Source of the DNA: Desulfobacteraceae bacterium
GTDB taxonomy: Bacteria; Desulfobacterota; Desulfobacteria; Desulfobacterales; RPRI01
DNA: 33,678 nucleotides
Direction: 5' to 3'
Assembly: GCA_003818505.1 (NCBI GenBank)
Contig: RPRI01000044.1
Span: forward strand, 1 to 33,678
Below are positions 3,562-33,678 of this stretch, piece by piece. The stretch's first letter is position 1. The number at the start of each line of letters is the position of its first letter. Under the pieces are notes generated by a model. That model did no database searches. It was not told the origin of the DNA and saw nothing but the letters and a program-made list of their open reading frames with translations. The position numbers and the translations under genes are program-made.

Positions 3562-4406
3562 TTAGCATTGGAGAGATATAAACTATAATTATATTAATCA
3601 ACTACAGGTTGAAAAGTTCTTAATATTTCATAGGAACCTTTACCCGCAAGCGGCAAATAAGGAAATTAGATACTTGCAAGCCTCGTTAAATTATGGCATA
3701 AGAAAACGCTTAATTTTGAATAATCCTTTTGAAGGGATTGAATTTTTTTCCGATTTCGATAAATTTAAATACATCACATCTGACGAAAATATTAACAAGG
3801 TCATAAAAGTTGTCCCGATACTCATGATTATATTTGGGCTATCTGTGAGACAATGGCCCGCATGAATGAGATCAAACCATTGACTTGGTCTGATGTTAAT
3901 TTCAGTCAAAGATATATTGTACTCTGGACCAGAAAAAAAGAGGAAGAAACCTTATACCCTGAAAACTTCCAATGGCAGAGCGGGTGTATCAATTATTGAT
4001 GCGTCGATATGATAATCGAGATTAATCAATAAAATGGATCTTCTGGCATTCATTATGGAGCAAAAACGGAAAAATTGAAATCGGACAATACAAGGAACTC
4101 AAAAAAATAATTCGGAGCTTGTGTAATAAGACTGGAGTCAAACTTCAGGTTTCACGCTCTCAGAAACAGTGGCACCTCGATACTTAAAAGTAACAATGTA
4201 TCGATTGATCTATTCACCGGCTTCTGGGTCATGAAAACAGGATGACCACGGAAATTTATCTTCATAGCATCAGCGAAACTGAGCAAAAAGCTATGGACAT
4301 TTTTGAGAAAATCAGCAATAAGTCTCACACAGATTCTCACACAACCATATCAGATGGGATGGCCCGATTTGGCCAACCTATTGATTCAATTACATTGCCC
4401 CCGTAG
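3562..4406 (+). pseudogene. Frameshifted tyrosine-recombinase integrase running into tRNA-Arg
   Basis: A phage/island-type tyrosine integrase can be read only by joining several frames. The core-binding part reads NKEIRYLQASLNYGIRKRL then NNPFEGIEFF (frame of 3581-3865). A frameshift near 3845 leads to ETMARMNEIKPLTWSDVNF. Further shifts give MAERVYQLLMRRYDNRD, then WSKNGKIEIGQYKELKKII. The catalytic core follows: FHALRNSGTSILKSNNVSI (HxxR) and, after another shift, RLLGHENRMTTEIYLHSIS (second His and nucleophile Tyr). The last frame continues through SHTDSHTT to DSITLPP and stops at a TAG (4404-4406) inside the tRNA gene. At least four frame disruptions make it non-functional. The closest kin I recognise are Desulfobacterota integrases with the same LGHENR-TTEIYLHS end. 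It is a scar of an element that used this tRNA. Confidence 0.85.
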
Positions 4407-4472
4407 CTCAGTGGATAGAGCAACGGATTCCTAATCCGTTGGCCGCAGGTCCGATTCCTGCCGGGGGTACCA
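4397..4472 (+). tRNA. tRNA-Arg (anticodon CCU)
   Basis: Cloverleaf folded by eye. Acceptor GCCCCCG pairs with CGGGGGT (the 1-72 pair is G-U). The D-arm is GCTC...GAGC. The anticodon stem is ACGGA/TCCGT with loop TTCCTAA, anticodon CCT at 4430-4432. The T-arm is GCAGG/CCTGC with loop TCCGATT. Discriminator A is followed by an encoded CCA (4470-4472). The first ten bases also encode the last codons and stop of the decayed integrase upstream, so this tRNA is an integration site. Confidence 0.93.
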
Positions 4473-16301: not shown

Positions 16302-16341
16302 TACCGGGAGAATATGAAAGTCTTGTAAAAAATCGAAATAT

Positions 16342-16361
16342 GCTCACTTAATGAGCTTTTT
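16342..16361 (+). terminator. Weak intrinsic terminator after xerC
   Basis: GCTCA / TGAGC stem of 5 bp, 5-nt loop CTTAA, followed directly by TTTTT. It lies 40 nt past the xerC stop. The short stem makes termination partial at best. Confidence 0.4.
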
Positions 16362-16368
16362 GGGGATT

Positions 16369-16451
16369 TTTAAATCACTTTGCTAAATCACAAGAAGATT
16401 TCGCCTGCGGCGGGTTAAAGCCTTGTGATTTTTAACGCTCAGCAATTTAAA
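16369..16451. repeat. Large imperfect hairpin between xerC and hslV
   Basis: Nested inverted arms: TTTAAA (16369-16374) with TTTAAA (16446-16451), TTGCT (16380-16384) with AGCAA (16441-16445), AAATCACAAG (16385-16394) with CTTGTGATTT (16422-16431), and an inner CGCC-TGC-GGCG (16402-16412). The outer arms pair across an asymmetric bulge. It may be a REP/MITE-like element or a leader structure for hslVU. Confidence 0.55.
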
Positions 16452-16528
16452 AATATATTTCACAAAAACCTCAAATTCGTTCGCATATGACCTTTTATAA
16501 AGCCGTCAAATATGAAGGAAATCAAACA

Positions 16529-20756: not shown

Positions 20757-20899
20757 GAGACCTTTGAAGAACGCCCGATTTTGCCCAAGTACAAGGAAGG
20801 CGATAATTTTAACCGCAGGAATACTTTAAAGTATTTTGAGGAATGAAATTTGAGCCTGACGCAGTAATCGGTCAAAAGGGGGTGTTATACAAAGGTCTC
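20757..20899. mobile_element. MITE-like element with terminal inverted repeats, upstream of argF
   Basis: A 143-bp non-coding unit with exact 10-bp ends, GAGACCTTTG and CAAAGGTCTC. The similarity extends inward so that about 24 of the first 31 positions pair with the other end by hand alignment. A perfect 16-bp palindrome, AATACTTTAAAGTATT, sits in the centre (20820-20835). No obvious target duplication is visible. There is no transposase, so it would move in trans. It lies 64 nt after argD and 13 nt before the argF start, so it is carried in the arg mRNA or supplies the argF leader. Confidence 0.72.
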
Positions 20900-20912
20900 G
20901 ATAGAGGGTGTC

Positions 20913-31000: not shown

Positions 31001-31075
<75 letters not shown>

Positions 31076-31083
31076 TTCTTTTT

Positions 31084-31158
31084 GGCGGCATAGCCAAGTG
31101 GTAAGGCAGCGGTCTGCAAAACCGTTATTCTCCGGTTCAAATCCGGATGCCGCCTCCA
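31084..31158 (+). tRNA. tRNA-Cys (anticodon GCA)
   Basis: Acceptor GGCGGCA pairs with TGCCGCC. D-arm AGCC...GGCA. Anticodon stem GCGGT/ACCGT (one G-U pair), anticodon GCA at 31116-31118. T-arm TCCGG/CCGGA with loop TTCAAAT. CCA is encoded (31156-31158). Its 3' part from the anticodon loop is duplicated about 2 kb downstream, so it is a probable integration site. Confidence 0.96.
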
Positions 31159-31236
31159 ATTTAAATCAGATTTATTATCCAGGATATTTCTGCGTTGCTT
31201 TCCTGTACAAAATATTGGTTTTTAAAAACAGCTCTT
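31115..31236 (+). repeat. Direct repeat copy 1: tRNA-Cys 3' half plus downstream flank (att-like)
   Basis: This 122-nt stretch runs from the tRNA-Cys anticodon loop through CCA and 78 nt beyond. It matches 33111-33233 with 13 mismatches and one 1-nt gap by hand alignment (about 89%). The intact tRNA makes this the left, functional copy. Confidence 0.85.
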
Positions 31237-31338
31237 CCCCGTTCTCGATACAGGGAACTCAAATGATACTCCTCACCGCAATAATGAATCCAAAGTTATT
31301 GATAAGTAGATAACATGTTTGATACTGATTATTTTCCT

Positions 31339-31357
31339 GACACTGAAATCAAGTGTC
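31339..31357. repeat. Short inverted repeat in the cyclophilin leader
   Basis: GACACT / AGTGTC, 6-bp arms with a 7-nt loop, followed 8 nt later by TTTTT (31364-31368). It could be a terminator for transcription out of the tRNAs or an end of a mobile element. Confidence 0.4.
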
Positions 31358-31406
31358 CGGTGGTTTTTGTAGGCCTACTTCATTTCAATTTGAAAGGAGA
31401 AAAACA

Positions 31407-31994
31407 ATGCTGAAAAAGATTCTGGTTATCCTGTCCTGCGGTCTCCCGATTCTCTGCGCCGGGGTCGCGGTCATCGCCGAACCGGCCGATAGGAACCCTG
31501 TCGTACTCATGGAAACCAGCCTGGGCAATGTGAAACTGGAACTCTTCGCCAAGGAGGCGCCGATATCGGTAAAGAACTTTCTTGACTACGTCAACAGCGG
31601 CTTCTATGACGGCACTGTCTTCCACCGGGTAATTCACAACTTTATGATTCAGGGCGGAGGGTTCACGGCCGACCTGAATCAGAAACGGACCAACCCGCCG
31701 ATTAAGAATGAAGCGGACAATGGTCTGAAGAACCTGGTGGGGACGCTTGCCATGGCCCGCACCATGGTTGTCGATTCAGCCACGGCCCAGTTCTTCATCA
31801 ATGTGGTCGACAATAGTTTTCTAAACCATCGTGACAAGACGCCGCAGGGGTATGGGTATGCGGTTTTCGGCAAAGTTAGTGAGGGGATGAACGTAGTGGA
31901 CAAGATCGTTGCCATCAAGACCGGCACGCAGAAGGGGTTTCGGGATGTCCCGGAAACATCGGTCGTCATCAAGTCGATGAAGGTTTTTCCGTAA
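31407..31994 (+). CDS. Exported cyclophilin-type peptidyl-prolyl cis-trans isomerase
   Basis: A 195-aa protein with a cleavable signal peptide (1-24, [22 protein letters not shown]) and a compact bacterial cyclophilin domain. The catalytic region is [13 protein letters not shown], with its conserved Arg and Gln; QFFINVVDN and YAVFGKV complete the binding site. The expected role is proline isomerisation during folding outside the cytoplasm. A longer frame begins 18 codons earlier but lacks a signal peptide at the right place; AAAGGAG 6-7 nt before this ATG decides the start. Codon use is more G/C-rich than the arg/lys genes, and it lies inside the tRNA-Cys islet, both pointing to acquisition by transfer. 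Confidence 0.94.
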
Positions 31995-32382
31995 CCGAAC
32001 GGGTGTCCTGTGACGCTCCGCGAAAAAGCTGCGGTGGTAGCTATGGATACTTTTAGCTGAGCTGGTAATGGTGCTATCTAAAATCACCTTGACGGAAGCA
32101 GGAATTTATGGATATCGTAAACACAATGTAACATATCAACATCAATGAAAAAATCAGATTTTGTTACGTATAGTAAGGTTGCATATTTGATACTGACGAT
32201 CTTCCTTCCTGCTATCAAGGATGCTCAATGATTGACTGATTTCGAGAACCATGCGAAAGTACGAACGGTAATGTTTAAAATAATGAAGCACGGCCATAAA
32301 ACTAGGAGATAAACAGAGAAAAAAACTCAACCTGTTACATCGGGAGAAACCATTCTACTCAACTCCAAAAGGAGCCACCACT
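31995..32382. other. Islet intergenic region, no gene seen
   Basis: About 390 bases between the two islet genes. No coding frame, tRNA or strong hairpin is supported. The 3' end supplies an AAAGGAG ribosome binding site for the membrane-protein gene, so a promoter for it probably lies here. Confidence 0.35.
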
Positions 32383-32964
32383 ATGAAATTTCGCACTCCC
32401 TTCAATTGGCTGCCCATCGCTGAACAAACGCGTGCGTTCGTTGTATTATTTGTGCTTACTATTATTGTGATGGTTGCACTCCAAGTCCTCGGTGTAAAGC
32501 TCAAGACTGACGCCGCGCCCTCCGGCATTGTTTCTTTTGAACTTGCAGGAACGCTGCCTCTCGCGCAGAAAATCATCGACTCGTGGGGGCAGACGGGACG
32601 CGTTTACGCGGGCATGAACCTCGGACTTGATTTTCTATTCATCGTCGCGTATGCGAGTTGCATAGGCTTGGGCTGCGTGATGGTAGCGCGCAGTCTCGAG
32701 CAACGCAGCATCCTTATTGCTTACGTCGGTGTCGTTCTCGCGTGGGCGTTGTGGCTAGCCGCGCTGCTCGATTGCATCGAAAACTATGCGCTGATCAATC
32801 TGCTGCTTGGCTCACCGCAGGCAGTGTTTGCTGCGCTCTCAAAATGGTGCGCAATCCCGAAATTCCTGATCGTCGGGTTGGGCATCGCGTACTTCATCCT
32901 CGGCGCGCTCGTGGCGAGGGTAATAAAGCTTAGCGGCGGCGCACAGAGCAACGTCATCCGATAA
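32383..32964 (+). CDS. Four-helix integral membrane protein of unknown function
   Basis: A 193-aa membrane protein with predicted helices at about 19-38, 81-102, 110-132 and 160-181. A polar loop of about 40 residues sits between the first two (SFELAGTLPLAQKIIDSWG, then GRVYAGMNLGLDF). Acidic and aromatic residues lie within or next to helices (GLDFLFIVAYA, LLDCIENYALIN). I do not recognise a characterised family. AAAGGAG 8-9 nt before the ATG supports the start. Codon use favours GCG, CTC and CGC, unlike the AT-leaning chromosome around it, and it lies in the tRNA-Cys islet, so lateral origin is likely. Helix-packing suggests a small transporter-like or enzyme-associated protein, but this is not established. 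Confidence 0.8.
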   Translation: MKFRTPFNWLPIAEQTRAFVVLFVLTIIVMVALQVLGVKLKTDAAPSGIVSFELAGTLPLAQKIIDSWGQTGRVYAGMNLGLDFLFIVAYASCIGLGCVMVARSLEQRSILIAYVGVVLAWALWLAALLDCIENYALINLLLGSPQAVFAALSKWCAIPKFLIVGLGIAYFILGALVARVIKLSGGAQSNVIR

Positions 32965-33110
32965 AAAGGAAGGCTATCAATCTGAAAGCCCGATCTGTGG
33001 GCTTGTTGCTATTCCAGCCTTTCGTTTCAACGAATGGAGATCTTAAGAACAATCAACTAATGATAGACTAACAAGAAAGGTTAAAAATCAAAAATCCTTC
33101 CAGGTATATT

Positions 33111-33233
33111 TGCAAAACCGTTATTATCCGGTTCAAATCCGGATGCAGCATCTAATTTAAATCGGATTTTATCTCCAAGATATTTCTGAGTTGCTTTTCT
33201 GTACGAAATACTGGTTTTTAAAAAACAGCTCTT
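33111..33233 (+). repeat. Direct repeat copy 2: decayed tRNA-Cys 3' half plus flank (att-like)
   Basis: Begins abruptly at the anticodon loop (TGCAAAACCG), keeps a perfect T-arm (CCGGTTCAAATCCGG), but the acceptor strand and CCA have decayed (GCAGCATCTA). The homology continues 78 nt into the flank, ending at CAGCTCTT. No 5' tRNA half exists, so it is not a tRNA gene but a duplicated attachment-site-like segment. Confidence 0.85.
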
Positions 33234-33559
33234 TCACAAGCAGTGGGGAATACGCTCGCTGTTTTGGTTTAATATCAAGCTGGGTTTGTGTCTGCAGCAT
33301 GCCGGTTTCAACGGTGCTTTCATCGGCTCCCAAGATCGCTCATTTAAAAGGAGATCCGCACCATGGACAACACAAAAAGAAATTGTTCTGCAAGTGGAAT
33401 AAGGACTATATCAATGCCAACATCAATGAGATTCGCGTATTGACCGCCAAGGATAGGAATGTGTGCCAGAACCGCGCGAGAGCGGCCCGGCATAAGGACA
33501 ATCTGTGTAAGTCTTTGGAATTCAAAAAAAAGAAAAAAATAAAGATCTTTACTTGCAGC
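33234..33559. other. Intergenic region after the second repeat
   Basis: About 325 bases. AAAGGAG at 33348-33354 precedes an ATG at 33363 that opens only 26 codons before TGA. The reading then stays protein-like in places but is broken. It may be a small or decayed gene; I do not call it. No RNA gene is seen. Confidence 0.3.
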
Positions 33560-33678
33560 CTATAAAGCTTTCTCAATGGCCTTGGCCAGGGTTTGAAGGA
33601 TCGTGACGCGAGCATAATTTTTGTCGTTGGCCGACACGAGGGTCCATGGTGCAAGAGATGTGCTGGTGCGCTCAATGA
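33560..33678 (-). CDS. PPK2-family polyphosphate kinase / polyphosphate:AMP phosphotransferase, C-terminal fragment
   Basis: Only the last 38 codons lie in the window; the gene continues beyond the right edge. The reading is IERTSTSLAPWTLVSANDKN followed by YARVTILQTLAKAIEKAL and a TAG at 33560-33562. The ERTST..APW..V.ANDK.YAR..IL.TL..AIE pattern is the characteristic C-terminal end of PPK2-type enzymes, closest to polyphosphate:AMP phosphotransferases. These make or use nucleotides with polyphosphate as phosphate donor. The length is too short for subtype assignment. It converges with the islet, so it may belong to the neighbouring element or to the chromosome beyond. Confidence 0.75.
   Translation of the reverse strand, partial: IERTSTSLAPWTLVSANDKNYARVTILQTLAKAIEKAL

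Follow-up and report, generated by a model that had tools for sequence, protein, structure and literature searches.

Genomic islands that target tRNA genes are recognized by what they leave at the target. The Islander description of such tDNA-targeted islands uses the displaced 3' fragment of the tRNA gene and names an anticodon-centred attP site, 'A', which it gives for 2083 of 3919 islands (PMC4383910). As set out there, an island has an integrase inside or overlapping it and a length of 2-200 kb, and each member of a tandem array has its own fragment and its own integrase. A decayed element that has kept attL and attR, has lost its integration genes and is later joined by another insertion has been described as a CIME (PMC5704250), a kind of element that a neighbouring one can move in cis. 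Partial tRNA genes have been described as integration scars, and for P. fluorescens SBW25 a 121-kb island is mentioned that has another Cys-GCA copy, with a low score, next to it (PMC9897764). Toxin-antitoxin genes can also lie at such borders, as does hipAB, which adjoins the att site of the island GI21 (PMC8978831).

The locus described here lies at a tRNA-Cys gene in a metagenome-assembled genome (MAG; G000, 4.43 Mb in 352 contigs). The window, i.e., the whole stretch of DNA that was analysed, is the whole contig C98 (33678 bases). When held against the CIME description, it has two att-like cores, at 31115 and 33111, and genes for integration or transfer are absent. Its parts are given below in window coordinates, and the flank of the repeat, the DNA beside it and the possible histories are discussed in turn.

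The repeat at tRNA-Cys and its cargo

31001-31075, + strand: tRNA-Gly(GCC), preceding tRNA-Cys (ARAGORN)
31084-31158, + strand: tRNA-Cys(GCA), intact, the target gene (ARAGORN)
31115-31158, + strand: core copy 1, from the anticodon loop to CCA (self-BLAST); the match to phage contig L143 begins at 31113
31159-31236: shared flank, copy 1 (self-BLAST and alignment)
31181-31270, - strand: remnant, 3' part, of a BrnT-like toxin gene, copy 1, pointing to the tRNA (profile E 7e-9, positions 59-88 of 90)
31407-31994, + strand: cyclophilin-type peptidyl-prolyl isomerase, 195 aa (PF00160 9e-46; NCBIfam PPIase A 3.8e-72, below the cut-off of that model)
32383-32964, + strand: membrane protein, 193 aa, without a Pfam or NCBIfam match
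33111-33154, + strand: core copy 2, the displaced tRNA-Cys 3' half, with 4 changes in 44 nt
33155-33233: shared flank, copy 2, equal to copy 1 at 55 of 64 aligned nt
33174-33233, - strand: remnant of a BrnT-like toxin gene, copy 2 (profile E 2e-5)
33237-33272, + strand: an end of a repeat that is dispersed in the genus, beginning where the copies stop matching (flank to 33233)
33362-33565, + strand: small open frame, a start codon in frame with a nearby ATG lacking (by eye)
33560-33678, - strand: 3' end of a PPK2 gene, truncated where the contig stops (PF03976 2.3e-8)

The repeated segment consists of the tRNA-Cys half from the anticodon loop to CCA and 78 nt of flank. The stretches 31115-31236 and 33111-33233 are 88.6% identical over 123 nt (self-BLAST, E 9.6e-39), which bears out the original prediction of a duplication about 2 kb downstream, at about 89% identity and with the tRNA 5' half missing. 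The spacing is 1.95 kb from the tRNA end to the fragment, or 2.07 kb counting both. In an ungapped comparison copy 2 has 102 matches in 122 nt. Shuffling the letters of 31237-33678 200 times gives at most 53, and the best ungapped score for the repeat elsewhere in 1-31000 is 51. ARAGORN calls no tRNA in copy 2, which ends 445 bp before the contig end, and BLAST finds no further second copy in the assembly.

That the repeat starts in the anticodon loop had been taken as the mark of a tyrosine-integrase crossover site, and viral contigs agree with this. A scan with 29 nt of the tRNA-Cys 3' end gave one match, L143, and a degenerate 44-nt pattern matched three viral contigs, L143 included. This contig has tailed-phage genes (a portal-like protein, PF07230 1.1e-7; other genes judged by eye) and, near the end of the stretch, a piece running from the anticodon loop to CCA with the tRNA 5' half missing. 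Its match to the window begins at 31113 and that of copy 2 at 31115, so that the starts fall within 2 nt of each other. Because an independent phage contig has the same piece, the tRNA-Cys half is a genuine integrase core. L144 has an intact tRNA-Cys and then a 432-aa integrase frame (Arm-DNA-bind_3, Phage_int_M and Phage_integrase, PF00589), which starts 112 bp after tRNA-Cys by the mechanical TTG or about 180 bp after it by the first ATG. L145 has most of tRNA-Gly, then tRNA-Cys and then genes that look prophage-like by eye. The scan of viral contigs for the exact junction of tRNA and toxin gene gave no match, and the four phage records found with tRNA plus flank match the tRNA part alone. 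The tRNA-Cys gene is marked as an integration site used by phages of this bacterial group.

The predicted absence of an integrase from the islet holds: neither a PF00589 search nor tblastn with two integrases found a match between the copies or to the right of copy 2 up to the contig end. On the contigs that bear tRNA-Cys in the genus (10 genomes), PF00589 found no integrase except a syntenic Xer-like gene in G007, which sits on the opposite side of tRNA-Cys. Seven downstream stretches (1.6-10.9 kb) likewise gave no integrase by tblastn with the two integrases, a search that distant ones could escape. At the other end of the window, a decayed tyrosine-integrase remnant with several in-frame stops (3844-4268; PF00589 23.7 and 21.4 bits, below the cut-off) lies just upstream of tRNA-Arg(CCT) at 4397-4472.

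Between the copies are the two genes that had been noted for their deviating codon use, a cyclophilin and a membrane protein without a family, and both observations stand. Third-codon GC is 70.9% in the cyclophilin gene and 63.9% in the membrane protein gene versus 40.3-54.0% in 17 other genes of the window; their overall GC is 53-54% versus 44% for the window. The cyclophilin is probably secreted, as its N-terminus reads by eye. Its protein is 84% identical to a homologue in a Syntrophobacterales MAG (next best 65%), and its DNA is 83.9% identical to that MAG over 31384-32033, the neighbouring DNA being without a match. Within the genus, 8 of the 9 other genomes have distant cyclophilins only (best match 39-43%), the remaining one, G009 (63% complete), has no match, and a second cyclophilin in the own genome stands at 46%. 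Of 40 genomes, only its own gave the membrane protein, and proteins on two Nostoc plasmids match at 40% and 35%; no relative was found in the 113 stretches of genome contigs scanned or among phage records. Both genes are foreign to the genus, and we regard them as probably plain accessory genes.

The shared flank and the variation of the site

What is new beyond the original prediction is the nature of the flank: profile and alignment show it to be the 3' end of a BrnT-like toxin gene that is read in the direction of the tRNA. The lead came from a BLASTN match to G002 (contig C77), where the flank sequence forms the 3' end of a gene of 94 aa that is followed by a CopG-like antitoxin gene. For the toxin profile, 32 homologous sequences from the order were used, and its E-values assume a nominal 18 frames. 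In local alignment to each of four intact genes, copies 1 and 2 also score higher than any of 300 shuffles. About 30 toxin codons are left per copy, with neither a complete toxin nor an adjacent antitoxin. In intact pairs the antitoxin gene directly follows the toxin gene; at the locus the tRNA 3' end occupies that position, and an antitoxin profile finds no remnant in 24 translated frames (best E 0.64). The label BrnT-like is used because the intact relatives score 14.4 and 20.4 bits against Pfam BrnT_toxin, below its cut-off of 34.5.

At E 1e-6, 41 of the 146 genomes searched in the order have toxin relatives, the own genome in three places: with an antitoxin on C82, with a frame-broken antitoxin on C226 and, as a more distant gene with an antitoxin, on C115. 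The genes on C82 (L118) and C226 (L119) are two close copies. A 79-kb viral contig, which by its name comes from the same metagenome as the phage contig L143, also has an intact pair of BrnT-like toxin and CopG-like antitoxin close to its end (L227:376-967).

Nine other genomes of the genus were compared. The tRNA-Cys gene was matched in seven of them (G001, G002, G003, G006, G007, G008 and G009) and not in G004 and G005; the contig of G001 stops inside tRNA-Cys, which leaves six genus-mates readable downstream. In five of the six, homology to the window stops 0-4 nt past the tRNA-Cys end, and in one of these, G008, the 858 nt before the breakpoint are 91.6% identical to the window. In G009 the match continues 64 nt into the flank, which is present in a single copy with the same tRNA-flank junction, so that the junction of tRNA and toxin tail is common to three flank copies. 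The presence of the flank does not simply track kinship, since G008 stands at least about as near to the window as G009 does (the two stretches shared in the left flank are 89% identical in G008 versus 84% in G009, and 87% versus 88%). The downstream stretches of seven genomes including the own one (1.6-10.9 kb) have nothing in common at E 1e-3, barring a 44-nt piece in G002 and G006 and a dispersed repeat in G008 and G009. These comparisons show tRNA-Cys to be a variable site within the genus. The original prediction held that related genomes with the same two copies and no polymorphism would count against it; two flank copies were found in none of the nine, two of which are those without a tRNA-Cys match and one that ending inside the tRNA. 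That the flank is the ordinary DNA downstream of tRNA-Cys was rejected, since it is absent from five of the six readable genus-mates.

Against shuffles the flank of G009 does narrowly better for three of the four intact toxin genes and fails for one, and it has no significant match to the toxin profile. Once the tRNA is removed, it has no match to the flank of the window at E 1e-3; its homology rests on an anchored alignment (47 of 64) and on matches that include the tRNA. Copies 1 and 2 agree at 55 of 64 sites, and either of them agrees with G009 at 47 and 44 (sites 14 versus 6 and 3). In a survey of the order with tRNA-Cys plus flank as the query (163 positions; best rows first, two candidates scored per genome), 233 of 291 genomes matched, and among the matches listed only the own genome and G009 pass position 95 of the query.

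To the right of copy 2, 8 of the 10 genus genomes match the dispersed repeat at 33237, which has at least 22 further rows in the own genome. These counts are from the 40 of 85 candidates that were scored, and G002, whose sole match is a toxin gene, is not counted. Many of the copies seem to belong to a longer palindromic repeat that is rich in G+C. Two more dispersed repeats, of about 150-180 bp and with many genus copies at 82-92%, lie at 16322-16497 and 20757-20900 of the window. The original prediction had named as its other weak point that the flank might be a common dispersed repeat unrelated to tRNA-Cys. As a copy of the repeat at 33237 this was rejected, since that repeat begins only after the flank; in a weak sense it is borne out, in that the toxin family is dispersed, while the junction of flank and tRNA is seen only at tRNA-Cys. 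The small open frame has no Pfam match for 33392-33562. A search of the nine other genus genomes with the PPK2 end gave nothing at E 0.001, though a query of 38 residues is short enough to miss distant relatives. With foreign cargo to its left and the PPK2 end unmatched in the genus to its right, copy 2 seems to lie between two pieces of acquired DNA.

Probable successive insertion and its alternatives

We consider it probable that at least two related elements inserted in tandem at tRNA-Cys and that both have decayed, leaving no integrase. The 3' end of tRNA-Cys would be the target of tyrosine-integrase elements with a crossover in the anticodon loop, and at least two related elements would have entered it successively. 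Each would have restored the tRNA with a 3' half of its own and carried, behind it, the 3' end of a BrnT-like toxin gene. The later insertion would have displaced the left end of the earlier element to 33111, and both elements would then have lost the integrase, the antitoxin and most other genes. The remainder would be a 2-kb islet with the foreign cyclophilin and membrane protein genes, and next to it the stump of the other element, from 33111 to the contig end with PPK2.

In a single island, copy 1 would be followed by DNA of the element and copy 2 by the old chromosome. Because the same element end follows both copies, copy 2 is best taken to mark where another, related element begins on its left. 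The repeat, the use of the same core by a phage, the variable site, the identity of the flank, the junction in G009, the toxin family on a viral contig, the foreign cargo and the unmatched PPK2 end support tandem elements; against them count the lack of an integrase at the locus, the contig end 445 bp past copy 2, the mutual closeness of copies 1 and 2 and the poor matches of the G009 flank. The two related elements of the original prediction remain the best explanation of the shared flank; the order of events, the two separate insertions and the lost integrase are what we infer. Tandem insertion also agrees with a published course of events, i.e., decay to a CIME and then another site-specific insertion (PMC5704250). 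Most likely the locus has no present function as a mobile unit. There is a very slim chance that the tRNA-Cys core and the toxin tail are the fixed left end of a recurring family of small integrase-less cassettes, moved by the tRNA-Cys integrases of other phages and gathering foreign genes one at a time at this site (cyclophilin, membrane protein, PPK2).

The closeness of copies 1 and 2, each the other's nearest relative, is what one would expect if a single element had undergone a tandem duplication of about 2 kb with a breakpoint in the anticodon loop, and a deletion at 33234 had then removed the second cargo. However, the DNA after 31246 has no similarity to the DNA after 33233 (self-BLAST, E 0.01), the deletion is an extra step, and the start of copy 2 within 2 nt of the phage core is left unexplained; we consider this history unlikely. 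The toxin tail might also be old chromosomal DNA that stood by tRNA-Cys in a common ancestor and was later copied with the tRNA half, no second related element being involved. The single copy with the same junction in G009, another species of the genus, fits such an origin, but the flank is missing in five of the six readable genus-mates, among them G008, and an unrelated element entering the tRNA would leave copy 1 followed by DNA of that element instead of the old flank. We regard an ancestral flank as quite improbable. Finally, two sources may have been joined at a conserved tRNA sequence in assembly or binning. The MAG has an estimated contamination of 5.7% and the cargo differs in GC from the window, as noted above; the copies, however, are 11% divergent and so share no exact repeat of the length that matters to an assembler, and the dispersed repeat to the right of copy 2, present in 8 of 10 genus genomes, indicates that this DNA belongs to the lineage. 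An artefact is scarcely credible.

Comparison with described islands

The current understanding of tRNA islands is unchanged by this locus. What it adds is that worn tRNA islands may still be informative: a duplicated flank shows what an element end carried, here a toxin-antitoxin pair, and the tRNA-Cys site was probably hit more than once.

Like the islands of the Islander description, the locus has an intact tRNA gene, a displaced downstream 3' fragment in the same orientation and a probable anticodon-loop crossover. Unlike them, it has no integrase and has the DNA adjacent to the core duplicated as well; its length of only about 2 kb (1.95 or 2.07 kb, by the way of counting) falls on either side of the lower limit of 2 kb. 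In the DNA up to 33678 there is one fragment and no integrase, where the tandem arrays described have a fragment and an integrase for each member (PMC4383910). The locus is a tDNA-island relic that resembles a tandem tRNA island, and the integrase rule of Islander would exclude it from listing. Core copy 2 is a scar like the partial tRNA genes described earlier (PMC9897764), differing in that the fragment is too short for ARAGORN and the flank is duplicated. Among BrnT-type toxins with CopG antitoxins (PF04365, PF12441), the flank corresponds to the 3' end of a toxin gene, with about 30 codons in each copy. The hipAB pair of GI21 is described as complete and functional (PMC8978831), whereas the toxin-antitoxin system at this locus is a remnant. 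There is also a likeness to CIMEs and their accretion (PMC5704250): an integrase-less unit lies between two att-like cores and a related unit lies beside it. The locus fits this known pattern, and is a tidy but ordinary relic of it.
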